IMG/VR virus record: IMGVR_UViG_3300004369_000086
Location: 1 to 30,826 of that record
DNA: 30,826 bases
Source of the DNA: a virus
Reading direction: 5' to 3' (one strand)
The translations under genes were made by a program, and so were the position numbers. Under the pieces are notes generated by a model that was not told the origin of the DNA, searched no databases, and saw only the letters and a list, made by a program, of their open reading frames with translations. How positions within the stretch are numbered: position 1 is the stretch's first letter; every line of letters begins with the position of its first letter. Shown piece after piece: positions 3,955 to 30,826 of this stretch.

Positions 3955-5658
3955 ATGAGTTATATTTTAGGAATAAGTTGTGGTTACCATGATAGTGCCG
4001 CATGTTTAGTTTATAATGGAAAAGTTTTAGGAGCTTGTGAAGAAGAAAGATTTACGGGTATAAAACACGATTCTGCATTTCCACATAAAACAATTGAGTG
4101 GTTATTATCGGAAAACAATATTACTAAAGATAATATTAGTTGTATTTCTTTTTATGAAAAACCAGAATTAAAATTAGATAGAATAGAAACTACTACTAAA
4201 AGTGGTGGGTTTTTGAATTATTTTAATAGAAGAAAAATCATAAAAAGAAATAAAACTCAATATAAAGAATTACTCCAAAATTTAGAATTATATAAAGGTT
4301 CTAATACAGAATTATATTTCTCAGAACATCACCAATCACATGCTTCATATTCTTATTTAACATCACCTTATAAAGATTCTTTAATATTTTCTGTTGATGG
4401 TGTTGGTGAGTGGGAAACTACTTCAGTATATCTTGGTGAATCTAATTCAATTAAAAAATTAGAAACAATTCACTTCCCACATTCATTAGGAATGTTTTAT
4501 TCAGCAATGACAGCTTTTCTTGGCTTCAAACCAAATGAAGGTGAGTATAAAGTTATGGGCTTAGCTCCATATGGAAATCCTTTTAAATTTTTTAAAAGAT
4601 TTAAAAATATTATTAAAGAAAAAGAAAATAGCAAGTTTGAAATCAATATGGATTATTTTACATATGATTGGTCAGATACACATATGTTTAATGAAAAACT
4701 TGGTATAGAACTTGGTATCATAAATAGATTACCAGATGAACCACTTACACAAAAACATAAAGATTTAGCTGCGGCAGTACAACTGATTTATGAAACATAT
4801 TTTTTTAAATTATTAAATTATGTTAGCACACTACATCCTACAAAAAATATTTGTTTGAGTGGTGGTTGTGCTTATAACGGAACTGCTAATGGAAAGATAT
4901 TAGAAAAAACACGATTTGATAATTTATGGATTCCACCAGCACCATCTGATGCTGGTTCTGCAATTGGTTGTGCTTTAGAATATTTTTATTTGAATAATTC
5001 TTCTTTAAGAAAAGATAATAGTAACCCATATCTTGGACCAAGTTATAAACGAAAAGATTGTGCTGATGTGGTTGAGAAATATAAAAAATATGTGTACAGC
5101 GAATATCATACTAACCAATCTTTGATAAAAACTATATCAAAAGAAATAACAGATGGGCAAATTGTAGGTTGGTTTGAGGGACAAATTGAATTTGGTGCAA
5201 GAGCATTGGGTAATCGTTCTATACTTGCAAATCCAAGAGACCCTCAAATGAAATCTCGTTTAAATAGAGTAATTAAGAAACGAGAAGGATTCAGGCCTTT
5301 TGCTCCTATTGTAAAAAGAGAAACTCAAGTAAAATATTTTAAATACCAAAGAGTTGTACCTTATATGAATCAGGTGGTAAAAGTTAAAGAAGAGTACATC
5401 GATAAACTACCTGCTATTACTCATGTTGATAACTCAGCAAGAATACAAAGTTTAGATTCAAAACAACATTCTCGAATATATAATTTACTTACACAACTTG
5501 AGATTGATAATGGGTATCCTATTGTAGTTAATACATCTTTTAATTTAAAAGACCAAACAATGGTATTAACCCCAGAAGATGCTATTAAAACGTTTTTAAA
5601 TTGTGAAATGGATATTCTTGTTATGGATAATTTTGTAATTAGAAAAACAATCATATAA
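3955..5658 (+). CDS. Carbamoyltransferase of the NodU/CmcH family
   Basis: A 567-residue enzyme of usual family length, apparently complete. The N-terminal ASKHA-like domain begins ILGISCGYHDSAACLV and contains CEEERFTGIKHD, the His-rich SEHHQSHASYSY, and the nucleotide-site segments FSVDGVGEWET, YKVMGLAPYG, CLSGGCAYN and APSDAGSAIG. The C-terminal YrdC-like domain has GQIEFGARALGNRSILANP, REGFRPFAPIV and NTSFNLKDQTMV. The family uses carbamoyl phosphate and ATP to carbamoylate a hydroxyl group on sugars, antibiotics or, in some phages, hydroxymethylated cytosine in DNA. The acceptor cannot be read here and no cytosine hydroxymethylase is seen in the window. The ATG follows the sigma candidate's stop directly, so the pair is cotranscribed. 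Confidence 0.93.
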   Translation: MSYILGISCGYHDSAACLVYNGKVLGACEEERFTGIKHDSAFPHKTIEWLLSENNITKDNISCISFYEKPELKLDRIETTTKSGGFLNYFNRRKIIKRNKTQYKELLQNLELYKGSNTELYFSEHHQSHASYSYLTSPYKDSLIFSVDGVGEWETTSVYLGESNSIKKLETIHFPHSLGMFYSAMTAFLGFKPNEGEYKVMGLAPYGNPFKFFKRFKNIIKEKENSKFEINMDYFTYDWSDTHMFNEKLGIELGIINRLPDEPLTQKHKDLAAAVQLIYETYFFKLLNYVSTLHPTKNICLSGGCAYNGTANGKILEKTRFDNLWIPPAPSDAGSAIGCALEYFYLNNSSLRKDNSNPYLGPSYKRKDCADVVEKYKKYVYSEYHTNQSLIKTISKEITDGQIVGWFEGQIEFGARALGNRSILANPRDPQMKSRLNRVIKKREGFRPFAPIVKRETQVKYFKYQRVVPYMNQVVKVKEEYIDKLPAITHVDNSARIQSLDSKQHSRIYNLLTQLEIDNGYPIVVNTSFNLKDQTMVLTPEDAIKTFLNCEMDILVMDNFVIRKTII

Positions 5659-6641: not shown

Positions 6642-7052
6642 ATGAGTACAGAATTTGAATTATTCCCAGGAAAAAATTTAAGTGGATTGTTCAAGGATAT
6701 CTATGATAACCAACAAAACAAGAAACAAAGAATCTCAGAATTAATTGCTGAGATGAAAAAAGTAATCAGACACGCAGGTGATATGGCAGTTATTGGACCT
6801 ATCATCAAAGATTTGGTAGATACCTCAGTAAAGAACGATGATGCCTTAATCAAGATGGCAGCAATTGCCCAACGAATCATTGGTGCTCAGCACAAAGCAG
6901 AAGGTGATAGTGGGTTCTTAACCGATGAAGAAAAAGAACAACTTCTAAAACAATTGGATGATACAATTGCAGAAGTACATGATGAAACAGAATCAAAAGT
7001 TGATGAACTTACAAACGAAATAGAAGAACTTAAACAAAAGGTAGGTAAGTAA
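6642..7052 (+). CDS. Helical phage protein, 136 aa, probable tail/virion component
   Basis: A 136-residue acidic protein, predicted nearly all helical. The centre (AGDMAVIGPIIKDLVDTSVKNDDALIKMAAIAQRIIG) looks like a packed helical bundle, and the C-terminal third (DDTIAEVHDETESKVDELTNEIEELKQKV) is a coiled coil. I do not recognise the family. It shares a late-type promoter with the spike gene and its stop overlaps that start (TAATG), so a structural or chaperone role in baseplate assembly is inferred from position. Confidence 0.7.
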   Translation: MSTEFELFPGKNLSGLFKDIYDNQQNKKQRISELIAEMKKVIRHAGDMAVIGPIIKDLVDTSVKNDDALIKMAAIAQRIIGAQHKAEGDSGFLTDEEKEQLLKQLDDTIAEVHDETESKVDELTNEIEELKQKVGK

Positions 7053-8293
7053 TGAGTAAAAGAACGTCATCATCTAATAGTAGTTTTTTTGGAAATAAAA
7101 ATGATAAGTTATTTGCAAGAAAATTTAAAACAGGTGTTGTTGTATTTGTTCACTTAGATGATTCTAAATTTGATACAATTACAATACCAGATGATATTTC
7201 AGATTCGGTATCTGATAAAGAATCTCTTTTAGGTTATGCAAAAATCGTAGAACGAGGAGATACCTCATATGATTTAGCTGATGTTCCTTTTTATCCACCA
7301 TATGATAGTGAAGAGGGGTTGCCAATTCTCGGAGAAACTGTTGAATTAATTCGATTAGGTGGAAACTATCATTACAAAAGAATATTTAACATTGATATTA
7401 ACAAAGGTAATGCCGTTGAAGATGCATTATTATTAGGATTACCAAGTGAGAACACAGAGAATAATTCATCAGAATATGGAGAAACCTCTGCAACAGGTAC
7501 ACCAAATGGAGGTGGCAATGAAGATAGAAAAAATAAACTTGGTGAATATTTTGAAGCAACTCAAATAAATCCTTTAAAATATTACGAAGGTGATAAAGTT
7601 ATACAATCACGATTTGGCCAATCAATTCGTTTTAGTGGATATAATAATGAAGAAAATGTATTAGCTCCAACTATTATAATTAGAAATAGGCAAAACGATA
7701 AATCAATTGAAGATTTAAAAGAATTTGAAATTACTGAAGAAGATGTAGTAGAAGATGGTTCTACTATTGCAATTACAAGTGGTGATTATTTGTTAGGATT
7801 CACACCTGGTACAGAGGATATCCCATTTGAAACCGAACCAGTATATCATGAACCACCCGAAGAATTAAAAGGTACTGACCAAATCTTAATTAATACTGGT
7901 AGACTTATTTTATCATCTAAAGATTCTGAGATGATATTTTATTCTAAAGGTCAGTATTCATTCATATCCGATGGTAAACTTACTATTGATAATGGCTTAG
8001 ATGGTGCTGATATGGATTTCAATGGAGATGTTAGGATTACTACTAATGATTTTAATACATACATACTTGGGGGTGCTGGTGAAATTTATTTAAATACCGA
8101 AGAAACAACGGAGCCATTAGTACGAGGTGAAACTTTAAAATCACTATTAGAACAGCTAATTGATGAAATAAATAAACAAATATTCATGACACCTGCAGGC
8201 CCAACATCACCTGGTCCAACAAACGCTCCAGCTTTTAATCAGATTAAATCAAAGTTAGATACATTTTTATCTACGTTAAACTATACGGAGTAA
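7052..8293 (+). CDS. Baseplate hub/spike protein, gp5-like OB-fold
   Basis: A 413-residue protein. Residues about 25-120 read as an OB-like beta barrel (KTGVVVFVHLDD..., then ILGETVELIRLGGNYHYKRIF). A low-complexity Asn/Gly/Glu linker (about 130-160) follows, then DKVIQSRFGQSIRFSGYN. Short beta repeats (GRLILSSKDSEMIFYSKG, QYSFISDGKLTIDN) resemble the beta-helix of membrane-piercing spikes. The C-terminus has a helix (ETLKSLLEQLIDEIN) and a Pro-rich strand. The order OB fold then beta helix fits gp5-type spikes of contractile tails; the lysozyme domain of T4 gp5 is absent. The start overlaps the preceding stop by one base. Confidence 0.65.
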   Translation: MSKRTSSSNSSFFGNKNDKLFARKFKTGVVVFVHLDDSKFDTITIPDDISDSVSDKESLLGYAKIVERGDTSYDLADVPFYPPYDSEEGLPILGETVELIRLGGNYHYKRIFNIDINKGNAVEDALLLGLPSENTENNSSEYGETSATGTPNGGGNEDRKNKLGEYFEATQINPLKYYEGDKVIQSRFGQSIRFSGYNNEENVLAPTIIIRNRQNDKSIEDLKEFEITEEDVVEDGSTIAITSGDYLLGFTPGTEDIPFETEPVYHEPPEELKGTDQILINTGRLILSSKDSEMIFYSKGQYSFISDGKLTIDNGLDGADMDFNGDVRITTNDFNTYILGGAGEIYLNTEETTEPLVRGETLKSLLEQLIDEINKQIFMTPAGPTSPGPTNAPAFNQIKSKLDTFLSTLNYTE

Positions 8294-14427: not shown

Positions 14428-16704
14428 ATGGCTATAACTAATTTTAAAGAAATATTAGACAGACGAGGATATCTCGTAGATTCTGAAGATAGAAATATTT
14501 TTGAAAAAGAAATCAAAAAATCTAACTTTGGAATGGGGTATTCTGATATGATTGAATTCATTCTATATGATTCAAATGATAATCAACTGCCTCAAGGTGA
14601 AGATGGTAAGATGGTCAGATATATTAGTATTGATGATGCCAATTTTAATGAATATTTTTTAATATCAGATAACAATTATACTAAAAAAAGAAACGGAGCT
14701 GGTGAATATTTAATTGATTTAGAAAGATTGATTTCTGAAGCAGGATATTCTAATGGTATTTTTAAAACACAAGTAACTCTACTAAACAGAAGAGTAGGTT
14801 CAGAAGAAGTAAATACTGATAAATTATGGATACATGAAATATCACCAAGTAGAACTGAAGTTCGTGTACTTCCTCTTAAAAATAAAAACAATCAAGATTT
14901 ATTAAAAAGATATGGTATTTTTACCGATGGTGGTAATTTTAGAGATGATACAATTTACGCAGCAATTCCTTTTATAGAAAATGTAGATGTTCAAACTGCA
15001 TTTGATTCTTTTATTAGAAGTAAAGGACAAGTTAGAGAAGGTAGACAATATATTAATTTAATAAAATCAGAATTTAAAGTAAATGATGTAGAATTTTTAT
15101 TCAAACAAATTCGAGATAGATATATAGAATCTATGAAAAACTTTATTAATGGTAGAGTTTGGAATATATTAGATATAAACTATGGTAAACCGATTGGTAA
15201 ATCTGAAAAACTTGAATTATCAATACCTACTATTCGAATTACTGCAATGCAATGTCTTACTAATTCAATAGAATATTATTTACCAAAACGAGATATACGA
15301 GAAGTTAGTGGTCTTACTAAAAAGGAACAAGAATCATTTGATAAAGTAAAAGAAATTTTAAAATCAGCTGTTTCAAATACTGAATTTGAATCTACCATAC
15401 CAAGTACAATAGATGCAGTTGTTAGGGGATGTATGGACCCGAAAGCTAAAAACTATAACCCTTCTGCAAAAGAAGATGATGGTAGTTGTTCTTATGGTAG
15501 AAGAGATATTGACCCAATAGAACAAGAAGAAATACCTGATATTATAGTTGACCCACCTGCAATAAAAGGTTGTACAGACCGTACCGCTTTAAATTATAAT
15601 CCGAAGGCGGAAGAAGATGATGGTAGTTGTCAATATAAACAAACTCCAAGACAAGTAACAAAAACTTACTATGTCTGGTCACCAACTGCTGACTGGAAAT
15701 GGAAACAAAAAGGTGAAATCAAATCTGCAAGTGGTAATGAATATGATTCATTTAAAATTACATATGATATCGGAACTTATAAATTTAAAGGAGATATTAG
15801 AGAAGTTCCAAAGGTTAGAAAGCCAGAACCAAAGATTTTTAGTTATATAGTTACCAATGTAACCTATAATACTGACTCTCGACCTTTTCTACAAATATTA
15901 AGGGAACGAGGTAAAGGTAAGGATGGATATAGAAACGAAGTTAAATTCGAAGATAGATTGTTTACCCGTAAAGGAAACCCAATTACATTTACATATAAAG
16001 ATAAACTTGGAAATAATAAAACAAGTTCAACTGTTGACATAGGTGAAAGTGTAGTAGTTTGTGCAATAGAAAATACAATTTCTCCAATACCAGGAGTTAC
16101 TATTGTTAAAAGTGGTGCATGTAATACAATAATAGACCCGCCACCAAGAAAAATATTCGGATGTACGGACCCTACAGCTTTAAACTTTAATAGATTGGCT
16201 GAAATTGAGGATGGAACTTGTAAGTATAAAATAAGATTAGAACCAATTCTTGGATGTACTGATTCTAAAGCAGTAAATTACAATTCAAACGCAACTCAAG
16301 ATGATGGAACTTGTAAGTATCCAGACCCTCCACCTCCACCAGTACTTTGTAATGACCGTAAGGCATTAAACTATGGACAACCTGGTCTTTGTAGATATCC
16401 ACAACCACGATTACGTTGTACTGACCGTAATGCAATAAACTATGGAGAGGCGGGGGCTTGTGTATATAATAGACCAAAACCAAAACCAAAGCCAACACCA
16501 AAGCCAACACCTCAACCACCAAGACCTAACCCAACACCTCAACCACCAAATAGTGGCGGCCGTGGTGGAGGCGGAGGCGGAGGTGGTTTCCGAGAAGAAG
16601 TCTTTACAGATGATGGTTTAACATTGGGTGGTAATAATGTAAACCCGTTTACAAACAGAGGTGATTTTGTAAATAGAATAGTGAATAATAGAAACTTTAG
16701 ATAA
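14428..16704 (+). CDS. Baseplate/fibre protein with GCTD Cys repeats, 758 aa
   Basis: A 758-residue protein. Residues 1-320 are mixed alpha/beta, unrecognised. From about 334 on, Cys-pair repeats of the pattern GCTDxxAxNYN...DDGSC occur: four full (15427-15489, 15568-15630, 16159-16221, 16252-16314) and two shortened (16345-16392, 16414-16461). Between repeats 2 and 3 lies a beta domain. The tail is a PKPTPKPTPQPP-type Pro-rich stretch, then eight Gly in a row and a short end. Such repeats are frequent in surface and secreted proteins of marine Bacteroidota and may bind calcium or form disulfides. Function as an exposed tail component is inferred from context. Confidence 0.65.
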   Translation: MAITNFKEILDRRGYLVDSEDRNIFEKEIKKSNFGMGYSDMIEFILYDSNDNQLPQGEDGKMVRYISIDDANFNEYFLISDNNYTKKRNGAGEYLIDLERLISEAGYSNGIFKTQVTLLNRRVGSEEVNTDKLWIHEISPSRTEVRVLPLKNKNNQDLLKRYGIFTDGGNFRDDTIYAAIPFIENVDVQTAFDSFIRSKGQVREGRQYINLIKSEFKVNDVEFLFKQIRDRYIESMKNFINGRVWNILDINYGKPIGKSEKLELSIPTIRITAMQCLTNSIEYYLPKRDIREVSGLTKKEQESFDKVKEILKSAVSNTEFESTIPSTIDAVVRGCMDPKAKNYNPSAKEDDGSCSYGRRDIDPIEQEEIPDIIVDPPAIKGCTDRTALNYNPKAEEDDGSCQYKQTPRQVTKTYYVWSPTADWKWKQKGEIKSASGNEYDSFKITYDIGTYKFKGDIREVPKVRKPEPKIFSYIVTNVTYNTDSRPFLQILRERGKGKDGYRNEVKFEDRLFTRKGNPITFTYKDKLGNNKTSSTVDIGESVVVCAIENTISPIPGVTIVKSGACNTIIDPPPRKIFGCTDPTALNFNRLAEIEDGTCKYKIRLEPILGCTDSKAVNYNSNATQDDGTCKYPDPPPPPVLCNDRKALNYGQPGLCRYPQPRLRCTDRNAINYGEAGACVYNRPKPKPKPTPKPTPQPPRPNPTPQPPNSGGRGGGGGGGGFREEVFTDDGLTLGGNNVNPFTNRGDFVNRIVNNRNFR
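15427..16461 (+). repeat. Six GCTD-type Cys repeats in the 758-aa protein
   Basis: Coding repeats of about 21 codons, each with a Cys near both ends and Asp/Asn-rich spacing. Repeats 1-4 are full length; 5 and 6 are 16 codons with the Asp cluster lost (NYGQPGLC and NYGEAGAC). The DNA is diverged between copies, so the repeats are old or under diversifying change. Confidence 0.85.
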
Positions 16705-16735: not shown

Positions 16736-19700
16736 ATGGCAAGAAACAGAAACATATTTGACCGAGATTTGGGAGATTTCGATTCCGGGAGAGATGACCT
16801 ACAATATGGTGAAGAATGGAATGGATTTCGCAGTTCTACTGAGGTGCTGTTAGACCCAATCGGCCGAGGTGGTGGAGGTGGAGGCCGAGGTGGTAGTAGT
16901 ACACCTATTATCGGTGGATGTACTGACCCTAAAGCAAAAAATTACAATGCAAGGGCAACTAAAGATAATGGTACTTGTTTATACTTCGAACCAATAGAAG
17001 AACCTATTATAAAAGTTGTACCTGGTTGTACTGACCGAACTGCTCTTAATTATAATCCAAAGGCTACCTTTAATAATGGTACTTGTAGATATCGAACAGT
17101 AGAACCTATCAGTACTTATAACAATTACAACGCACCTGTACGAGTAACGGTAACTTCTAATAATGGAGCTGCTACTGTTTTTGTAAATGGAGAATCTACT
17201 TCATTATCAACTACTCATGTGTTAGAGTTTACTGAAAAAGAACTATTAACTCCAAAATTAATAACAGTAAAAAAATCTGGATATACTTCAAAAGATGAAT
17301 ATAAAATATCTGCTTATAAAAAATCATACGAAGTACCAGTAAAAAAACTTCCTATAATATCAGTACCAGATAGACCAACACTACCACCACGTCCATTTAT
17401 TGGAGATGGTATTCGAGAATTTAATGATGACCTTGGTAACAAACAATTTTTTGGTGGTACTGGCTTTGGTGAGTTTAATACTGATGTATTTAGAGGTGGT
17501 GCATTTGAAGGAAATATAAATCCAATAAGAACATCTGGTGGACTTGGTCGTGGGTTTAATAACTTGAATCTTCGATTTGATGAAATTACTCCTCAACGAG
17601 TATCACGAGATTTAAATCCAACCAGACTTACAGTAGCTCCTCTTACTAAAATAGTAAATAATTACTATGAAATTCTTGTTGAAAAAAAGGTAAATGGTAG
17701 ATGGGTACAACAAAATATTCTGAAACCTGGGGAGATTACAAATTCGTTATTTCTTAAAAATAGAGTAGTAACAATTAATACTCCGTTTTCATTAAAGCAA
17801 GATTCTATTATCAAAGATGATGAGGATGATGTTGTAATTGATAATGGTGGTGGTGATGTTCAAAATGAAAGAAGAACTACAAAATATTCTGTAAGAATTA
17901 TTGCTGATGTTCCAAATGATGAAACCATACAATATAGAACAAACTATGGTCAACTTGGATATGTACTTGATGAAGATGATTATGTAGAATTTACCTTTAC
18001 ACAAACTGAAGGACAGGACTCTCCTTTTATAGAATTTTTTGGACAAGGTATTTCAGAATATACACATAAGGCAACATATGAGTTTAAGAATGGTACTAAT
18101 CAAAGAACTGCAAGACAAATAGATTCAAAATTTGAGTTATTACCTGGTGCAAATAATTTTAAAGTTACAGTTGCTAAATCTATATCAGTACAGGATTCAC
18201 CAAGTACACCTTTATTAAATGTAAATCAGAATTCTGTAATCTTTAATACCGCACAAGATAATAATGTAACTAAGATAAGTTATACGTCATCAAATGCGGA
18301 AGAAGTAATTTATACACTTGGAAAAGTAAAAAAATCCATTTCACCAAATGGAACTATTAAACTTACTAAGAATGATTTTACAAATGGTTTAGGAAGATAT
18401 ACACTTTACTTACAACCAGTATCTGCTAGAGGTGGTAGTGGTGATATTCAAAAAGTAGTAATAACAGTAGAAAGTAAAGCTTACTTACCTGGACCAGATA
18501 TTACTACGATTAATTACCCACAAAATATTCAAGGTGCAGATTTTAAAGGAACTGATGTAGATTTTCAAGTTAGTTGGCAATCTATTAATACAAACTATAT
18601 TAGAATTTATGTTGGTAAATACTCCAATGATTATAATTTAGGACAATTTCCTGCGATTGGCACTACTTCATTTAATGTTGGTAGCTTAATTAGAAAAGGT
18701 GGAAACCAGATATTTTCAAATAGAGATGTAAGTCAAATTACATTACTATTAGTTCCATTCAATGAAGAGGGTGATGAATTAACAGAAGGTAAGGTTGAAG
18801 AAATTAATATTACCTTTGATAAAGGAGATTTAACATTAAGAAGAGCAGAAGTAGTTTCGGATATTAAATCTGCATTCTCTCGTCAATTTAATGAATCTAC
18901 ATTTAATGAATATATATCACCTTTCTTAACACACTATTTACATCTTGGTGATGGTGATAATAAATTAATTGCTACTTGGGGAATTGATGAAGATACTTTA
19001 TCTGAGTTTGAAATCGATGAAACTACCAATAGACAAAAATTAATAAAAAAAGAAAAAGCGTTAGTATTAAAGTTATACGAACCTCTTCCAAGAAATATTG
19101 GTACAAATGATACTATTTGGATTTCTAAAATTCAATCGATACCACTAATAGACCAAATTACAATATTAGATGATATTGTAAATGCTTGTACTCCACTTAC
19201 ACCAAATTTTAATTTAGAAGTAAATGATGATGTTGGGTATCAAATATTAGATGATTTAATAGCAAGTGGTTCTACTTCATCTACTGAAGTTGTTAATCAA
19301 TTTATATCATCAAGCAACTTTTCTTTAGAAAATCTTAACATTAATTTCGTAACACAATCTACAATAGAATCTGGTTCGATATTAATATCTGCAGGAGATG
19401 AAGATTATAATTGGAAAGATTTTATAAAATATTCATCAGCCGCGGAACGAGTAGAAAATTTTTACTATAAAGTTAAATTAATAGAATCATACGAAGGTCA
19501 ATACGAACTTCTTACTTCAGGTAGTGCAGGTTCAAATTGGACAGGTTCGTTGGCAGTTGTAAATGATGCTAATAAAAAACTTGAAAAAATTAATGATGTT
19601 AAAAAAGGTTTTGATGCATTTGAAAAATTCTTATACACCTCATCATCTATTGGTGGGTTAACATATCCTGGAGCGGGACAAACAGAATTATCATCATCAA

Positions 19701-22303
19701 CTGATTCAAGTGTTACTAATTGGTATGCTGGAATACTTTCATCAGCTGTTGAATATGATAACTACAATACCTCAAGATTAACATATAACTTACCAAAACA
19801 TATTACAAATGATGAAAATAACTCAGAGTTCATTTTATTCTTTGATATGGTTGGTCAGCATTTTGATATTTTATGGACACATATTAAAGGAATATCTCAA
19901 TCTAAGAAGTTAGAAAATAAATTTGAAAATGGTATTAACAATGATTTAATTTATCATATGTTAGAATCTTTAGGTTGGAATGCAGATATGGGAGTTAAAT
20001 CTCAATTCTTGTGGGAATATGCATTTGGTAAACATTCTGATGGAACTCAGATTTCTTCCATGAGTGGTAAGGAAAGACAACAAGAAGTTTGGAGAAGATT
20101 ATTAAACAACTTACCATATCTATACAAACATAAGGGTACAAAGAGAGCAGTACATGCTGCTCTTAGTTGTTATGGTATTCCTGCTTCATTATTAACTGTA
20201 ATGGAGTTTGGTGGACCACAAGACCCAACTACAGCTGGTACAACTAATTTTACTTACGAAGATAGAACAGCTTCTATAAACATAAGTGGTTCAGCTTCTA
20301 TTATAGTACCTTGGAAAGAATATTCAGAAACATCAGACCATCCAAATTCAGTAGAAATTAGATTAAATACAGACCAAAGACAAGACCAACAAGTTATTAG
20401 TGGTTCTGAATGGTCATTGCATTTATTAAAAGATACTGGTTCTATGGCTCACTTTGAGTTAAGAGTTAGTGGAAGTGGTACTTTATATTCCGCATCAACT
20501 GATAGTGGTTCTTTCTTTAATGATGAATATACTCAAGTTGTTGTAAATAAAACAACAACTGGTGGTGATGATGTATTTACATTTTATGCTAAAGAAGGAT
20601 TCCAAGAAAGATTAAGAACAAACGTAAGTGGTTCATTAACTATTAGTGGAGTAAGTGGATGGACAAGTGGTAGTAATATAGAAATTGGTGGAAGTACACT
20701 TACTGCTTCGGTAGATGAATTTAGATTATGGACTACTGCTTTATCTGAATCACGAGTTGATAATCACACACTATTACCAGATGCTATTGATGGTAACCAC
20801 ATTTCTTCTTCAACTGAAGATTTAATTTTTAGATTAGATTTTGAGTATCCAAAAAATAGAAGTACAAGTGGAGACCCTTATATTAAAAACGTTTCAATAA
20901 ATCGTTTTTATGGTGAATCTTATGCAACTGCTTCAATGTTTGTTGATGATACAACATATCCATATCAATATACTCCATATGATAGAACAGTAACTGCAAA
21001 TGTTCCTTCAAGTGGATTTAACGTTGGAAATAAAGTTAGGTTTGAATCCCAAACTAAAATTGCTGATTTATCTTACAGACAAAGAGCAACTAAAAAATCA
21101 CTTGACCAATCTCCGATTGATACCGATAGATTAGGTTTGTTCTTTTCTCCTGTTAAAGAAATTAACATGGATATTCTTAAATCATTGGGTTCATTTAGTA
21201 TTGATAATTATATTGGTAACCCAAGTGATGAATATTCTGATGAGTATAGAGAATTACGAAGTTTAAGAAATTATTATTTTGATAGATATTCTCTAAATTT
21301 CAACGAATACATTCAATTGGTTCGTTATATTGATAAATCTTTATTTGATACGTTAGAATCTCTTGTACCCGCACGAGCAAAAGTTTCAAGTGGGTTGTTG
21401 ATAGAACCACACATCTTAGAAAGAAGTAAGACGAAGTGGAATAAACCAACATCTGAAAAAAGAGATTATTCTGTAACTATAAATGTAGATGAAGATATTA
21501 ATGCTATAGCATCAAACGAAGGGTTATTAACAATAATAGATGCATCAAATGATACTATATTAACTGGAGATAATTCACAATATCAATCTACAATTGATGC
21601 TGAAGCTGATATTAATTTAACTGCTACTAATGATAACTACTCTTCTACTATTATTGCGAATGATGATATTAATTTAGTTGGAACAATTACACGAAATAGT
21701 GGTTCAACTATGGGTGGTATTGAAGTAACTATTGATGCAGAATTTACAGGTTCATTACAAGGTCAATATGAATCAACCGAAGTCTTTACTCAAATTGGAA
21801 TGGAACCTGATTCTATTTCACGATTAGGTTTTGGAGTATATGGTAAAAATGGTAACTCAGTACGAACAAGATTAGATAAGGATAATAATTATATTAAAGA
21901 AAGAGTAAAGATATATTTATTAAAACAATCATATACCGAAGATGTACCACAAAATATTTCTGTTGATGCATCACAAGGTAGAGAATTTGTAACACAAACA
22001 AAATATAGATACAAAGTAAATATTTTACCTTTTACTGGTTCTAATGGATTAGAAACACAAGCTCCAAGTGGAGGAGATATTGTTTCAGCTACACCACTTG
22101 ATGGTTATTTTCCTTTACATTATAGAAATGTAGGAGATTTAACTACTGGTTTAGAAAATTCATTTTTTAATGGTTCAAAACAAACAAGTGCAACTACCTT
22201 AGATGGTGGTTCACCTGTTCAAATATTTACTACTAACCCTAATACTCTTAGAGTTTCTGATAGTGGAAGAGGTAGTGGTGAACCAATTTTGGAAGTTGAT
22301 TAA
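16736..22303 (+). CDS. Giant baseplate/tail protein, 1855 aa, with LamG-like and Cys-repeat regions
   Basis: The largest gene in the window. The N-terminus has a Gly tract (about 45-57), two GCTD Cys repeats (16916-16978, 17024-17086) and a PEGA-like strand set (VTVTSNNGAATVFVNGE). The middle has several beta modules. About 720-1160 is a mixed region with QEVWRRLLNNLPYLYKHKGTKRAVHAALSCYG. A LamG/concanavalin-like sandwich lies at about 1178-1370 (EWSLHLLKDTGSMAHFELRV, SVDEFRLWTTALSESRVDNH). Near 1578-1653 are four tandem 19-residue repeats. The C-terminus contains HYRNVGDLTTGLENSFFNG and DSGRGSGEPILEV. It could serve as the gp7/gp10-type wedge or fibre-attachment protein, with the LamG domain contacting glycans. 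It has its own late-type promoter. Confidence 0.7.
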   Translation: MARNRNIFDRDLGDFDSGRDDLQYGEEWNGFRSSTEVLLDPIGRGGGGGGRGGSSTPIIGGCTDPKAKNYNARATKDNGTCLYFEPIEEPIIKVVPGCTDRTALNYNPKATFNNGTCRYRTVEPISTYNNYNAPVRVTVTSNNGAATVFVNGESTSLSTTHVLEFTEKELLTPKLITVKKSGYTSKDEYKISAYKKSYEVPVKKLPIISVPDRPTLPPRPFIGDGIREFNDDLGNKQFFGGTGFGEFNTDVFRGGAFEGNINPIRTSGGLGRGFNNLNLRFDEITPQRVSRDLNPTRLTVAPLTKIVNNYYEILVEKKVNGRWVQQNILKPGEITNSLFLKNRVVTINTPFSLKQDSIIKDDEDDVVIDNGGGDVQNERRTTKYSVRIIADVPNDETIQYRTNYGQLGYVLDEDDYVEFTFTQTEGQDSPFIEFFGQGISEYTHKATYEFKNGTNQRTARQIDSKFELLPGANNFKVTVAKSISVQDSPSTPLLNVNQNSVIFNTAQDNNVTKISYTSSNAEEVIYTLGKVKKSISPNGTIKLTKNDFTNGLGRYTLYLQPVSARGGSGDIQKVVITVESKAYLPGPDITTINYPQNIQGADFKGTDVDFQVSWQSINTNYIRIYVGKYSNDYNLGQFPAIGTTSFNVGSLIRKGGNQIFSNRDVSQITLLLVPFNEEGDELTEGKVEEINITFDKGDLTLRRAEVVSDIKSAFSRQFNESTFNEYISPFLTHYLHLGDGDNKLIATWGIDEDTLSEFEIDETTNRQKLIKKEKALVLKLYEPLPRNIGTNDTIWISKIQSIPLIDQITILDDIVNACTPLTPNFNLEVNDDVGYQILDDLIASGSTSSTEVVNQFISSSNFSLENLNINFVTQSTIESGSILISAGDEDYNWKDFIKYSSAAERVENFYYKVKLIESYEGQYELLTSGSAGSNWTGSLAVVNDANKKLEKINDVKKGFDAFEKFLYTSSSIGGLTYPGAGQTELSSSTDSSVTNWYAGILSSAVEYDNYNTSRLTYNLPKHITNDENNSEFILFFDMVGQHFDILWTHIKGISQSKKLENKFENGINNDLIYHMLESLGWNADMGVKSQFLWEYAFGKHSDGTQISSMSGKERQQEVWRRLLNNLPYLYKHKGTKRAVHAALSCYGIPASLLTVMEFGGPQDPTTAGTTNFTYEDRTASINISGSASIIVPWKEYSETSDHPNSVEIRLNTDQRQDQQVISGSEWSLHLLKDTGSMAHFELRVSGSGTLYSASTDSGSFFNDEYTQVVVNKTTTGGDDVFTFYAKEGFQERLRTNVSGSLTISGVSGWTSGSNIEIGGSTLTASVDEFRLWTTALSESRVDNHTLLPDAIDGNHISSSTEDLIFRLDFEYPKNRSTSGDPYIKNVSINRFYGESYATASMFVDDTTYPYQYTPYDRTVTANVPSSGFNVGNKVRFESQTKIADLSYRQRATKKSLDQSPIDTDRLGLFFSPVKEINMDILKSLGSFSIDNYIGNPSDEYSDEYRELRSLRNYYFDRYSLNFNEYIQLVRYIDKSLFDTLESLVPARAKVSSGLLIEPHILERSKTKWNKPTSEKRDYSVTINVDEDINAIASNEGLLTIIDASNDTILTGDNSQYQSTIDAEADINLTATNDNYSSTIIANDDINLVGTITRNSGSTMGGIEVTIDAEFTGSLQGQYESTEVFTQIGMEPDSISRLGFGVYGKNGNSVRTRLDKDNNYIKERVKIYLLKQSYTEDVPQNISVDASQGREFVTQTKYRYKVNILPFTGSNGLETQAPSGGDIVSATPLDGYFPLHYRNVGDLTTGLENSFFNGSKQTSATTLDGGSPVQIFTTNPNTLRVSDSGRGSGEPILEVD
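16916..17086 (+). repeat. Two GCTD-type Cys repeats in the 1855-aa protein
   Basis: Two 21-codon repeats (16916-16978 and 17024-17086) of the same type as in the preceding gene, with DNGTC and NNGTC in place of DDGSC. The second shares GCTDRTALNYNPKA with repeat 2 of the 758-aa protein, showing exchange or duplication between the two genes. Confidence 0.85.
21467..21694 (+). repeat. Four tandem 57-base (19-residue) coding repeats
   Basis: Consecutive units at 21467-21523, 21524-21580, 21581-21637 and 21638-21694, pattern xxxTIxAxxDINLxxxxxx. Examples are YSVTINVDEDINAIASNEG, YQSTIDAEADINLTATNDN and YSSTIIANDDINLVGTITR. Unit 2 (LLTIIDASNDTILTGDNSQ) is the most diverged. Regular strand-turn spacing suggests a small beta-solenoid in the C-terminal part of the giant tail protein. 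Confidence 0.75.
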
Positions 22304-24266: not shown

Positions 24267-24298
24267 AACCCTCACCACTTAGGTGGGGGTTTTTTTTT
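24267..24298 (+). terminator. Intrinsic terminator
   Basis: A 10-bp stem with one G-T wobble (AACCCTCACC at 24267-24276 with GGTGGGGGTT at 24282-24291), loop ACTTA, then a nine-T run (24290-24298). It ends the unit of the 409-aa tail protein. A GTG inside its 3' arm is in frame with the next gene but is not a believable start. Confidence 0.92.
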
Positions 24299-24309
24299 GT
24301 TATAGAATT

Positions 24310-24894
24310 ATGGAAAAAAAATATTTACCATTTAACTTTAAATTTTTAGGAAATATAGATATTACAGAAGTAGTAGATAAGTTAAGTACATTTACTGAAG
24401 ATGATTGGTTAAGAGATGTTTCACGAAATTTAAGAGGTAGGGCCCACCAAAATACACATTCAATAGGTGTGTTATGGGATGGCGATTCTTTGGCAAATAA
24501 TTCAATTGCTGAAAAAAATGAATACAACTATAATAAAATAGATTTTGATAGTATTAAAAATACATTACTTTCCATATATAAAAAACATTATGGAGATGGT
24601 CACATACTAAGAGTACTTTTAGCTAGATTAAAACCAAACTCTATAATATTAGAACATGAAGATGCTGGGAAATCTTTACTTATATGTAATAGAACTCATA
24701 TTCCATTACAAACGAATGACGATATAATATTTTCTGTTGGACATGAGGAAAAGATATTAAAACCAGGGGAAATTTGGGAAATAAATAACGCAAAACTTCA
24801 TTCGGTAAAAAATAATAGTAATGAGTATAGGATACATCTTATTGTAGATTATTTAAAAAAGAATCTTGGAAATAACAGTAGTTTACTAAACTAA
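24310..24894 (+). CDS. Aspartyl/asparaginyl beta-hydroxylase family 2OG-Fe(II) oxygenase
   Basis: A 194-residue enzyme starting at ATG 24310; the in-frame GTG at 24283 lies in the terminator stem and is rejected. The double-stranded beta-helix core is clear: LRVLLARLKPNSIILEHEDAG with His116 and Asp118 as iron ligands, RTHIPL (Arg128, His130), LKPGEIWEINNAKLHSV with His164 as the distal ligand, and YRIHLIVDY with Arg174 for 2-oxoglutarate. Members hydroxylate Asp or Asn side chains or small peptides; the target is unknown. The gene sits between a terminator and the promoter of the next tail gene with no promoter of its own visible. It looks like an inserted cassette relying on read-through. 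Confidence 0.85.
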   Translation: MEKKYLPFNFKFLGNIDITEVVDKLSTFTEDDWLRDVSRNLRGRAHQNTHSIGVLWDGDSLANNSIAEKNEYNYNKIDFDSIKNTLLSIYKKHYGDGHILRVLLARLKPNSIILEHEDAGKSLLICNRTHIPLQTNDDIIFSVGHEEKILKPGEIWEINNAKLHSVKNNSNEYRIHLIVDYLKKNLGNNSSLLN

Positions 24895-26301: not shown

Positions 26302-26871
26302 TTGAGTTTATTAATAAACAATGCCAATCAATGGGCCTTTGTACATATACCTAAAACAGGTGGCACAACAATAACTAATATTATATCAAACCAAGAAGGC
26401 ACTCAATTTATAACGGCACATGATTCTGTTAGAATGGTGCCAGATGATTATTTTATATTTACATTTGTAAGAAATCCATTTACAAGATTAACTTCAGCTT
26501 GGCAACATGGTGTGAGAAAAAATAAATATAGTACTTCTTTTTCTCATTTTTTAAAAACAATAAACTTAAATGATTTATGGATATTACCGCAAAGTTATTA
26601 TTTTAGTGCTGGAAAAACTGATACTAAAAAAATTAATTTTGTTGGAAAATATGAAGAATTTACAAACGATGCAAAGGTTATCTTAAACAAAATAAATGTG
26701 GATGTTAAATACATACCACATCTAAATAGAAATCCAATATATGATAATCATCCAAGTTTAAAACAAGAAAAATACTACAAAAGTTTTTATACAGAAGAAT
26801 GGATGAAAGATTGGGTTAGGGATAACTACAAAGATGATTTCAAAATTTTTAACTATGACATGGACATATAA
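26302..26871 (+). CDS. Sulfotransferase family protein
   Basis: A 189-residue protein of the PAPS-dependent sulfotransferase superfamily. The 5'-phosphosulfate loop is FVHIPKTGGTTI (13-24). The 3'-phosphate site is FTFVRNPFTRLTSAW (53-67) with Arg57. A later FVGKYEEF and a C-terminal FKIFNYDMDI match the family layout. It transfers sulfate from PAPS to a hydroxyl on a glycan or other acceptor, unknown here. The only plausible start is TTG at 26302; a stop (26296-26298) bounds the frame upstream and the first in-frame ATG comes after both PAPS motifs have begun. It follows the 59-aa gene by 10 bases and overlaps the next gene by 17. Confidence 0.85.
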   Translation: MSLLINNANQWAFVHIPKTGGTTITNIISNQEGTQFITAHDSVRMVPDDYFIFTFVRNPFTRLTSAWQHGVRKNKYSTSFSHFLKTINLNDLWILPQSYYFSAGKTDTKKINFVGKYEEFTNDAKVILNKINVDVKYIPHLNRNPIYDNHPSLKQEKYYKSFYTEEWMKDWVRDNYKDDFKIFNYDMDI

Positions 26872-27325
26872 AGGAAAACTAATAACCGAATTATCAGATA
26901 TGCCCGAAGATGTATTTGGGTTTATTTACAAAATAACAAATGGTAAAACTGATGAATATTATATTGGAAAAAAACAAGTAGTTTCAGTTCGTAAAAGAAA
27001 TTTCGGTAAAAAAGAAATTGCTGCTCTTGAAGATAAGAGAATGAAAAAATACGAAATGGTTACCAAAGAATCTGATTGGAAATCATATCGTTCATCTAAC
27101 CCCACAGTAAGAATGTGGTTTCACGAAAATGAAGTAGCTTTGAAAGAAGATAGACGGGAAGATATCAATAACCAACTAAAATTGGAAATACTCCACTTCT
27201 GTTCAAATAAAAAATCACTCACATATTACGAATTACAAGAACAATTTGCACATAATGTTCTTGCAGATGAATACTCATTAAATGATAATCTTCTTGGAAA
27301 ATTTTTTAGAAAAGACTTGGAATAG
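26855..27325 (+). CDS. SegE-like GIY-YIG endonuclease domain protein
   Basis: A 156-residue protein from ATG 26855 (MTWTYKGKLI...); an upstream in-frame ATG at 26834 would overlap the sulfotransferase further and is less likely. FGFIYKITNGKTDEYYIGKK is the GIY-YIG pair of the phage SegE-type family. TKESDWKSYRSSNP and the later Glu-rich helix follow as in relatives. The family includes homing endonucleases and stably kept phage proteins of unknown role. The conserved layout in T4-like phages and the absence of a surrounding intron suggest the second. The gene ends 14 bases before a host-type promoter. Confidence 0.75.
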   Translation: MTWTYKGKLITELSDMPEDVFGFIYKITNGKTDEYYIGKKQVVSVRKRNFGKKEIAALEDKRMKKYEMVTKESDWKSYRSSNPTVRMWFHENEVALKEDRREDINNQLKLEILHFCSNKKSLTYYELQEQFAHNVLADEYSLNDNLLGKFFRKDLE

Positions 27326-27453: not shown

Positions 27454-28395
27454 ATGTTATCACACCACGATAAACAACAAGTTATAAACATCTTAGATGA
27501 TGTATTGGGACCGGGTACATCTCTAAAAGGAGATGAACAGGCCCACTATTGTCCTTTTTGTCATCATCATAAAAAGAAACTACAAGTAAACCTACAAACT
27601 CAACAATGGCATTGTTGGGTATGTGATGCAAAAGGAAAACGCATTCAAAGGTTATTAAAAAGATTGCACGTAGATTCTCGTAAGTTAAAAAAGATATACG
27701 AAATCTATGGTGATGATTATGTTGTATATAGTAACAATACCGAAGATGAAAAGGTAGAGTTAAGGTTACCAAATGAGTTTCGTTCACTATTAGAAGAACC
27801 AAAGGGATTAAACCCAACGTTCAGAAAGGTGAAAGAGTATGCAAAACAACGAGGAATCACCACAGAAGATATTAGAAAATATAATATCGGGTATTGTGAT
27901 ACTGGTCTTTATTCCAATCGTATTATTATTCCTTCCTATGATTCGGATAATCGACTTAATTACTTCATCGCACGTTCTGTATTCGATGAGGAAAAATTTA
28001 AATATAAAAATCCGCCGGTTTCGAAAAATGTTATCATGTTTGAAAACCAAATAAATTGGAATGAACCTATTACTTTAGTAGAGGGGGTATTTGATGCAAT
28101 GGCTGTGAAAAGAAATGCAATCCCTCTACTTGGTAAATTTATTCCAAAAACTTTAAACGATACTATATATAAAAAGGGTGTATCTAATATTAATATTCTA
28201 TTAGATGAAGATGCACAAGAACAGGCTTTATATTATACTATGCAATTCCAAAATCAAGGAATCACTACAAAAAATATTAAACCATCAGATAAAGATGCTG
28301 GTGAGATGGGGTTCTCCCAAGTAAATAAAATTCTAAAAAATACAGAAGAAACACAATTTGGTGATATCATATCACAAAAATTAAAAGGTTTATGA
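27454..28395 (+). CDS. DNA primase, gp61/DnaG-like
   Basis: A 313-residue primase. The N-terminal CHC2-type zinc ribbon has Cys33-x2-Cys36 (CPFC) and Cys54-x2-Cys57 (CWVC). The Toprim fold follows, with TLVEGVFDAMA (Glu210) and NILLDEDAQ (Asp251, Asp253) as the metal-binding acids. Length is close to T4 gp61 (342). It makes RNA primers for lagging-strand synthesis at the phage replication fork with the replicative helicase, which is not in this window. It stands behind two tandem host-type promoters, fitting early expression. Its stop overlaps the next start (ATGA). Confidence 0.9.
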   Translation: MLSHHDKQQVINILDDVLGPGTSLKGDEQAHYCPFCHHHKKKLQVNLQTQQWHCWVCDAKGKRIQRLLKRLHVDSRKLKKIYEIYGDDYVVYSNNTEDEKVELRLPNEFRSLLEEPKGLNPTFRKVKEYAKQRGITTEDIRKYNIGYCDTGLYSNRIIIPSYDSDNRLNYFIARSVFDEEKFKYKNPPVSKNVIMFENQINWNEPITLVEGVFDAMAVKRNAIPLLGKFIPKTLNDTIYKKGVSNINILLDEDAQEQALYYTMQFQNQGITTKNIKPSDKDAGEMGFSQVNKILKNTEETQFGDIISQKLKGL

Positions 28396-30826
28396 TAATA
28401 AACAAGATTTACCATTTGGCAGATTTACATATTCGTAATCTCCAAAGACACAAAGAATATAGAGGGGTATTTAAAAAGTTTTTAAAACAAGTTAAAGAAG
28501 ATAAGATTGAGGATTCCCTCATTTATATAGCTGGTGATATTGCACATGCAAAAACTGAGATGTCACCAGAACTTGTACAAGAAATCTCTTGGTTCTTAAC
28601 TGAATGTGCAAAACTAAGAGAAACCATCTTAATTACAGGTAACCACGATTGTAATTTAAACAACTCACATAGATTAGATGTACTCACACCCATTATTGAT
28701 AATCTTAAAAATGATAGGATTCATTATCTTCGAGATACTGGTATTTACAATATTCACAATCTTACTTTTGTTGTCTATTCCATATTGGATAATAAAGAAA
28801 ACTGGCCCAAAGGAGATGATATAGAAGGAGAAAACAAAATTGTTTTATTTCATGGACCAGTAAACAAAGCACAGACCGATATTGGTTATACTGTATCATC
28901 CAACTCATTCCAAGTAGATATGTTTGATGGATTTGATATGGCCCTTTTAGGAGATATACACAAACGACAAACTTTTGGTGAAGGATATGAGTGGGTTGCC
29001 TATGCAGGTTCAATGATTCAACAGAATCATGGTGAACTACTTGAAAATCATGGTTACTTACTTTGGGATGTTCCCACTCGAACCTTTACCGAACATCACA
29101 TACATAATGATTATGGATTCTTAACTGTTGATGTAGTTAATGGTGAGATTCCACAATGGGTGTATGATGAGGTTGGTACTAAACTTCCAAAATATCCTCG
29201 ATTAAGATTGCGGTTTACCAATACAGAGGCAACTGATATGAAACGAAAAATAACTGAACTTAAAAAGTTATTTAAAGTTGCTGAAGTTACTGTAACAAGA
29301 ACAGATACGATTGGTCAATTAAAAACAAACCAAAAGGTAAATAAAAATATTGTTGGTAATGTTAAAGATGAAACATTCCAAAATTCTCTAATACGAGATT
29401 ATTTAGAAAGGCAGTATCTATTAGAAAATGATGAGTTAGATAAGATAGCAGAAATCAATTCAGAGTTAAATGGACAGATAGATGATTCGGATTCTGCTGG
29501 TAACATTCTTTGGACACCCAAGACATTTAATTTCTCTAATATGTTTTCTTATGGTGAAGATAACTTAATCAGATTTGATAAGGCACAAGGTATCATGGGT
29601 ATCTTCGCACCAAACGCGAGTGGTAAATCTTCTATGTGGGATGCACTTTCTTTCTGTATCTATGATAAAACATCTCGGACAACCTTTGCTAAGAATGTTT
29701 TAAATAATCGCAAAACAAACTTCTATTGTAAGTTTAACTTTGAGATTGATGGAGTAGATTACTTTATTGAAAGAAGAGCTAAGTATGTTAGAAAAGGAAC
29801 ATCGGTAAAAGTAGATGTAGATTTTTGGAAAGAAGATGGTGGAGTTATAGAATCACTTAATGGTGAACAAAGAAAAGATACTAATAAGAATATAGAAAAG
29901 TACTTAGGTAAGTTTGAGGATTTTGTTTTAACTGCTCTATCCCTACAAGGAAACAATGCACTCTTTATCGATAAATCACAAAGTGAAAGAAAGGAAATCC
30001 TTTCTCAATTTATTGGAGTAGATATTTTTGATAAATTATATCAAAAGGCGAGTGATGAGAATCGAGATAATGCAACACTTATCAGAAAATTCAAGTCCGA
30101 TGATTTTACTACAAAATTAGCTGAGATTGAAACTCAACTTAAAACTGATAAATCTGAGTATAAACTTTTAGAGTTAAATCAAAAGGCTTTAAAAGAAGAA
30201 GAGGATTTACTAAATAGACAAATTATTAAACTAAACGAGAAAATCGTAAAGTTAAATGCTGATAGTGGTGTTTCAATAGAAGAGTTAGAAAAAAGATTAA
30301 AAAATCTTGAAATTAAAAAAGATGGAGTTTCAACCACAAAGGGGTCAATACAAGAGAGAATCACATATAGAGAAGAGTTACAAATTACCTTAGAAGAAAT
30401 TATTGATAAATTTGATGAGGAAGATTTAGAAGAAGGAATCCAAAAATTAAAAGATGCAAAAGAAAAGTTAAGAGATATACAATCGGATATAGATAAGATA
30501 CAATTAAAATTAGATTCTTTGTATGAGAGAAAAGACCATTTAGATAAACACAAATACAATGAAGATTGTGATATCTGTATGGAAAACTCTCAAACTATTT
30601 TAGAACAAAAAGATAAGGTAGAAGATGGAATCAAGGAACAAGAATTTGAATTTAAATCTGCGGATGAGGAAAGATTAATGATAACCTTATTAATAGATTC
30701 TTTAAAAGGTTATGAAGATGAGTGGGGTAAATATCAAGAAGCAAAAGAAAAAGAAGATAAATTAGATAGAGAAATATCACAACTTATTAACAAGTTATCA
30801 ACAACTGAAACTGAAGAAATTCGTTT
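28392..30826 (+). CDS. SbcD-SbcC (gp47-gp46) fused recombination nuclease/ATPase, 3' partial
   Basis: A single frame of 811 codons, without a stop, runs from ATG 28392 off the window end. Residues 1-300 are the Mre11/SbcD nuclease: HLADLH (Asp11, His13), AGDI (Asp49), TGNHD (Asn84, His85), FHG (His154) and LLGDIH (His190). After a linker, from about 383, the SbcC/Rad50 ATPase begins with WTPKTFNFSNMFSYGEDNLI and the Walker A APNASGKSS (406-414, Lys412). ALSLQGNNALFIDKSQSERKEIL (about 515-537) follows, the Q-loop region. A long coiled coil reaches a zinc-hook CDIC (726-729). The second coiled-coil arm and the Walker B/signature half lie beyond the window. T4 uses separate gp47 and gp46 subunits to resect DNA ends for recombination-dependent replication. 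Confidence 0.88.
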   Translation, partial: MIINKIYHLADLHIRNLQRHKEYRGVFKKFLKQVKEDKIEDSLIYIAGDIAHAKTEMSPELVQEISWFLTECAKLRETILITGNHDCNLNNSHRLDVLTPIIDNLKNDRIHYLRDTGIYNIHNLTFVVYSILDNKENWPKGDDIEGENKIVLFHGPVNKAQTDIGYTVSSNSFQVDMFDGFDMALLGDIHKRQTFGEGYEWVAYAGSMIQQNHGELLENHGYLLWDVPTRTFTEHHIHNDYGFLTVDVVNGEIPQWVYDEVGTKLPKYPRLRLRFTNTEATDMKRKITELKKLFKVAEVTVTRTDTIGQLKTNQKVNKNIVGNVKDETFQNSLIRDYLERQYLLENDELDKIAEINSELNGQIDDSDSAGNILWTPKTFNFSNMFSYGEDNLIRFDKAQGIMGIFAPNASGKSSMWDALSFCIYDKTSRTTFAKNVLNNRKTNFYCKFNFEIDGVDYFIERRAKYVRKGTSVKVDVDFWKEDGGVIESLNGEQRKDTNKNIEKYLGKFEDFVLTALSLQGNNALFIDKSQSERKEILSQFIGVDIFDKLYQKASDENRDNATLIRKFKSDDFTTKLAEIETQLKTDKSEYKLLELNQKALKEEEDLLNRQIIKLNEKIVKLNADSGVSIEELEKRLKNLEIKKDGVSTTKGSIQERITYREELQITLEEIIDKFDEEDLEEGIQKLKDAKEKLRDIQSDIDKIQLKLDSLYERKDHLDKHKYNEDCDICMENSQTILEQKDKVEDGIKEQEFEFKSADEERLMITLLIDSLKGYEDEWGKYQEAKEKEDKLDREISQLINKLSTTETEEIR

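Follow-up and report, generated by a model that had tools for sequence, protein, structure and literature searches.

Mre11-Rad50 is a near-universal DNA-break enzyme that normally consists of two proteins. At the end of IMG/VR virus record IMGVR_UViG_3300004369_000086, which was analyzed over its whole length of 30,826 nucleotides (hereafter the window), a single open reading frame appears to carry both partners. This raises the questions of whether such an SbcD-SbcC (Mre11-Rad50) fusion is real, whether it is made as one chain or two, and what task it might serve in the phage that encodes it.

The frame starts at an ATG and continues for 811 codons without a stop to the last nucleotide of the window, and it holds both the nuclease and the ATPase motifs, as the preliminary description had reported. 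The start codon shares ATGA with the stop of the upstream primase-like ORF (Table 1). The record stops inside the gene, with ~240 C-terminal residues lying beyond its end. All five calcineurin-like phosphoesterase motifs of Mre11/SbcD are present (D11-x-H13, G48-D49-x-x-H52, G83-N-H-D86, H154, and G187-D188-x-H190, which read DLH at 11–13, GDIAH at 48–52, GNHD at 83–86, H154, and GDIH at 187–190), with motif V being GDxH and not GHxH. The hallmarks of Rad50/SbcC follow in the same frame: a Walker A motif APNASGKSS (406–414), a Q-loop LSLQGNN (516–522; Q519), and a long coiled coil with a CxxC hook (C726/C729). The succession described at the outset, of five SbcD motifs followed by the Walker A and zinc hook of SbcC, was thus found in its entirety, with ~216 residues separating motif V from Walker A. 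The window protein matches Pfam Metallophos (E=4e-9) and the SbcC-like PHROG 77 (E=8e-31), and both Metallophos and AAA_23 exceed their cut-offs in L002, a full-length homologue. Matches to the NCBIfam SbcC and SbcD models were far below cut-offs.

Table 1. Coordinates in the window of the fusion gene, its parts, and the genes directly upstream.
Feature	Position	Strand	Evidence
N-terminal 811 residues of single-chain Mre11-Rad50 (SbcD-SbcC) fusion	28392..30826	+	ORF, motifs, Pfam, PHROG
Mre11/SbcD nuclease and predicted capping region, residues 1–326	28392..29369	+	Motifs; Pfam Metallophos; Foldseek 3qg5_C, 3thn, 7dog
Predicted helix pair, residues 327–361, at Mre11 helix-loop-helix position	29370..29474	+	Predicted helices, L002 model; role from PMC3175470
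Predicted interdomain linker, residues 362–374 (~13 residues)	29475..29513	+	Low-confidence loop between helix 346–361 and strand 375–381
Rad50/SbcC N-lobe: first strand 375–381, Walker A, Q-loop	29514..30115	+	Motifs, L002 model, Pfam
ATG codon 384, conserved Met in FSNMFSYGE	29541..29543	+	Alignment; internal start judged unlikely
Rad50 coiled coil with zinc hook C726-D-I-C729 (30567–30578)	30116..30824	+	Motifs, L002 model
DnaG-type primase gene, directly upstream of fusion	27454..28395	+	PHROG 47 E=1e-50; DNAG_N and CHC2 zinc finger
GIY-YIG (SegE-like) endonuclease gene, same conserved block	26834..27325	+	Pfam SegE_GIY-YIG E=4e-21

The remainder of the protein is visible in relatives. L002 is 88% identical to the window protein over the shared 811 residues, and its frame runs on to 1052 residues. 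The additional ~240 amino acids contain CSGMERF (signature motif), FLVIDEGFGTLD (Walker B and D-loop), and ISHID (H-loop). These elements are found in the full-length relatives, and the window copy ends before them. One relative (L067, 6001–8991) is without ~55 residues of the capping region and keeps both catalytic halves.

The continuous frame is not peculiar to this record. Two scans of IMG/VR yielded 106 and at least 575 encoding stretches. Among the loci examined, 134 have both domains end to end in one ORF, and they encode 103 distinct proteins; IMG/VR contributes 132 of these loci, Mel-JY01 and LR756501 the other two, and at least 14 contigs are counted under two locus numbers. In a further 22 homologues, the contig gives out within the gene, and the frame passes from one half to the other without a stop; in one more, from a 484-kb uncultured phage (LR756508), an inserted ORF interrupts the gene. 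Isolated phages encode the fusion as one CDS as well, including Microcystis phage Mel-JY01 (1066 amino acids), Tenacibaculum phage PTm1 (1318 amino acids), Sphingomonas phage PAU (1301 amino acids), and Chryseobacterium phage MA9V-1 (1326 amino acids). The expectation that independent phage genomes would hold both domains in one protein with the same junction was therefore borne out many times, by these 134 loci and 103 proteins. The window is a metagenomic fragment that ends within the gene, as might be the case had an assembly or sequencing error joined two genes; however, the unbroken frame recurs across 134 loci, whose sequences take 103 different forms, and across complete genomes of isolated phages; this rules out an assembly artefact and leaves such an error a negligible likelihood. 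With the two domains kept in a single ORF at 134 loci, the joining of SbcD and SbcC in one chain is real and not due to chance, and the fusion is very widespread in water viruses.

In the interrupted copy (L083; LR756508.1, 5950–10172), the coding sequence breaks off shortly past motif V (GDIHKRQ), where an ORF (6671–7585) with clustered Cys residues and, by Pfam (E=6e-6), a TnsA-like endonuclease domain is inserted, and the gene picks up in a new ORF ahead of an SGSLIQQNHGE motif. It looks as though this gene has been split by a homing-type endonuclease; an Rfam search of the interrupted copy gave no group I intron match. Among host-genome contigs, relatives were limited to two short, cut-off contigs in MAGs labelled Dehalococcoidia and Cellvibrionales (L158 and L159; 42% and 49% identical, respectively), which may be viral contamination of bins. 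A plasmid search returned only remote matches, to the SbcC half.

The AlphaFold2 model of L002, which has the same numbering as the window protein, is of moderate confidence (mean pLDDT 70.9, pTM 0.42). It predicts the nuclease with its capping region, places two helices (327–342 and 346–361) between nuclease and linker, and a loop with pLDDT below 50 (367–373) between the second helix and the first strand of the ATPase (375–381). Foldseek comparison of the model with solved structures found both Mre11 and Rad50/SbcC, including 3qg5_C, 3thn, and 7dog; the alignments to 3qg5_C span ~400 columns of a query of moderate confidence. Profile searches pointed to E. coli SbcC (6s6v), archaeal Rad50 (3aux), and Thermotoga maritima Mre11 and Rad50 (3qg5/3tho) as solved relatives. 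In the T. maritima complex, the C-terminus of Mre11 is ~28 Å from the N-terminus of Rad50, a distance that 9–12 residues could bridge, and the Mre11 helix-loop-helix binds the root of the Rad50 coiled coil (PMC3175470). The predicted linker of ~13 residues after the helix pair matches this published bridging argument.

A single frame may still give rise to more than one product. The preliminary description had seen no Met codon around residue 381, where SbcC would be expected to begin. Codon 384, three residues from that position, is nevertheless ATG, and all 40 aligned relatives as well as all 41 close sequences keep the Met. This invariance is what would be seen if a Rad50-only protein were initiated at codon 384 alongside the full-length fusion. 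However, a start there would cut off the first ATPase strand of the L002 model, and the LR756501 fusion, 29% identical, reads FSNFKSYGD at this position, without the Met. Met 384 also belongs to a structural motif, N-M-F-S-Y-G, which can account for its conservation. Upstream of codon 384, synonymous codon identity is 0.52–0.62 and does not exceed the average over the gene, 0.62 (SD 0.06); it thus gives no hint that an internal ribosome site is conserved. Shine-Dalgarno-like words precede codon 384 in 8 of the 41 sequences and the true start in none, and are therefore uninformative here. A conserved internal start near 29530, foreseen earlier as an observation that would speak against a fusion, thus exists as a conserved ATG at 29541, whereas its use for initiation is unlikely given the lost strand and the unconserved upstream sequence. 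We consider a two-product arrangement very improbable, and conclude from alignment and model that the normal product is probably the fusion chain.

The nuclease half departs from the canonical sequence at one metal-ligand position. Throughout the window clade, the first His of motif V is replaced by Asp (D188), where T4 gp47 has GHFH, and the same replacement has been reported in Mimivirus R555, which has the variants GDxxH and GDxH (PMC3175470). With GDxH at motif V, metal binding may differ. Taken further, the replacement could mean that the nuclease is inactive or altered, and that the protein acts mainly as a DNA tether driven by Rad50. Asp, though, can bind metal, and the remaining metal-ligand positions are all kept; strict conservation of D11, H13, D49, N84, H154, and H190 among the aligned relatives suggests an active site under selection. 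We regard a primarily tethering role as unlikely. Motif V is likewise GDxH in Mel-JY01, LR756501, PTm1, and MA9V-1, and GHIH in PAU; the window clade and Mel-JY01 share GDxxH at motif II.

How the fusion relates to separately encoded enzymes was examined in trees of each half. In both, 16 of 16 fused proteins fall on one side of a single branch (support 100/99 in each), apart from five separate-gene phages (T4, cyanophage S-RIM2, Salmonella phage SJ2, Staphylococcus phage 676Z, and Tenacibaculum phage Larrie). The trees are unrooted and have long branches, and because of this and the small number of separate-gene phages, a single origin of the fusion is compatible with these sequences rather than proven by them. 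T4 gp47 and gp46 have the same two domains and presumed role as the fusion, but are two genes with 46.2 and 46.1 in between, as opposed to one ORF in the window, and gp47 has GDxxD and GHxH at motifs II and V in place of GDxxH and GDxH. With a single ORF, and one branch dividing fused from separate forms in both trees, the window protein is not a gp46/gp47 pair of the T4 kind. The label T4-like, in its strict sense, is not supported: the phage has contractile-tail baseplate genes, yet both halves of the fusion group apart from T4 and cyanophage gp47/gp46. E. coli SbcCD provides structural relatives of both halves, but is encoded by two genes and has only remote sequence similarity to the fusion.

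Among isolated phages, a close counterpart is Mel-JY01, whose 1066-amino acid fusion (WWT39521.1) is 38% identical. It is annotated "AAA domain containing protein," which leaves the nuclease half unnamed. The order GIY-YIG endonuclease, primase, fusion is common to both genomes, with one small ORF between primase and fusion in Mel-JY01. The single-CDS fusions of Tenacibaculum phages PTm1, PTm5, and pT24, Chryseobacterium phages MA9V-1 and MA9V-2, and Sphingomonas phage PAU (gp288, annotated "metallo-phosphoesterase") lie on the same side of the trees for both halves, but are longer (~1300 amino acids) and distant (23–24% identity to the LR756501 fusion), and PAU differs at motif V.

In 11 long contigs of relatives (123–289 kb, possibly incomplete), the fusion is the only convincing match to PHROG 77, which is gp46-like; searches of these contigs for a second gp46-like gene gave weak matches only, and their other Metallophos ORFs are short (217–490 amino acids). 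The 735-kb phage LR756501.1 (L084) has both the fusion and a separate SbcC-like gene (278528–282133 and 670999–672753). Most likely, the fusion replaces separate gp47 and gp46.

The window encodes gp25-like and gp6-like baseplate proteins, and therefore a contractile tail. Two large structural-looking proteins (14428–16704 and 16736–22303) have several Cys-containing repeats of the form GCTDxxAxNYNxxAxxDDGSCxY and gave no Pfam match. Between the tail and replication genes are an aspartyl/asparaginyl beta-hydroxylase-like gene (24283–24894) and a Sulfotransferase family 2 gene (26302–26871). The window also has genes for a peptide deformylase (1145–1759; Pfam E=2e-23) and a Nol-like carbamoyltransferase (3955–5658; PHROG 1601, E=4e-113). 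tRNA and Rfam scans of the window gave no match.

The preliminary description treated the fusion as one not known to be described for T4-like phages; the novelty this implied does not survive the literature. Yoshida, Claverie, and Ogata reported in 2011 that Mre11 and Rad50 are fused in Mimivirus, in a Bacillus phage (0305phi8-36), and also in bacteria, plasmids, and eukaryotes, and found R555 homologues, which may be phage genes, to be abundant in aquatic viral metagenomes beside phage primases (PMC3175470). Their paper also gave the linker argument and a model of recombination-dependent replication, with the fusion confirmed in only a few environmental scaffolds; by their account, with fewer sequences, the fused forms were not one group (PMC3175470). 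Literature searches for more recent accounts of the phage fusion returned only this paper as directly relevant. One part of a jumbo-phage overview treats SbcC and SbcD as near-universal partners, and that part makes no mention of a fusion (PMC7824862).

By its published description, R555 shares with the window protein the order of domains in one frame (nuclease first), a short linker after the helix-loop-helix, the motif variants (G48-D-I-A-H52 and G187-D-I-H190 here; PMC3175470), an aquatic viral setting, and a neighboring phage primase. R555 differs in being 1351 amino acids long with a longer coiled coil, compared with 1052 amino acids for L002. The window protein belongs to this already described kind of viral Mre11/Rad50 fusion. 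Among viral fold matches (BFVD), full-length giant-virus proteins with the same domain composition ranked first (Tupanvirus, Harvfovirus, Yasminevirus, and Catovirus), and Tenacibaculum phages pT24 and PTm1 came next. The giant-virus proteins fall in the length class of the fusion, and the one from Tupanvirus aligns over its entire length at 25% identity. A tentative reading, which we hold to be somewhat doubtful, is that the single chain is no sporadic curiosity: it would have arisen once, in line with the one split from separate-gene phages that either half shows, would be the sole and ancestral Mre11-Rad50 enzyme across a very large assemblage of aquatic tailed phages, and would have supplied Mimivirus-like giant viruses with their fused enzyme.

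The best explanation, to which we assign a probability of roughly 85%, is that an aquatic contractile-tailed phage makes its Mre11-Rad50 machine as a single chain from this ORF, and that this machine has a gp46/gp47-like task. Based on the known biochemistry of Mre11-Rad50, the helix pair would dock on the root of the coiled coil and two chains would dimerize through their ATPase heads and nuclease domains; such a homodimer would therefore equal the usual 2:2 complex. ATP binding and hydrolysis in the heads would gate the nuclease, and the CxxC hook would link the coiled coils. Going by the known Mre11-Rad50 family, single chains would pair into a homodimer that processes DNA ends under the control of ATP. 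As for T4 gp46/gp47, the likely task would be to process DNA ends in support of phage DNA repair and recombination-dependent replication, with host DNA degradation as a possible extra task. The fusion would fix a 1:1 stoichiometry, tether the two halves, and let the module pass on as one gene.

Such fusions and their abundance in aquatic viruses have been known since 2011 (PMC3175470). New here are complete genes, isolated phages that carry them, and evidence that its genomes have the fusion as their sole gp46-like gene. Phage genes named only "metallo-phosphoesterase" or "AAA domain protein" are thereby given a corrected annotation. The fusion constitutes a natural single-chain form of Mre11-Rad50, ~1050 residues in length, abundant, and conserved, and offers a ready-made 1:1 construct for structural and single-molecule work.
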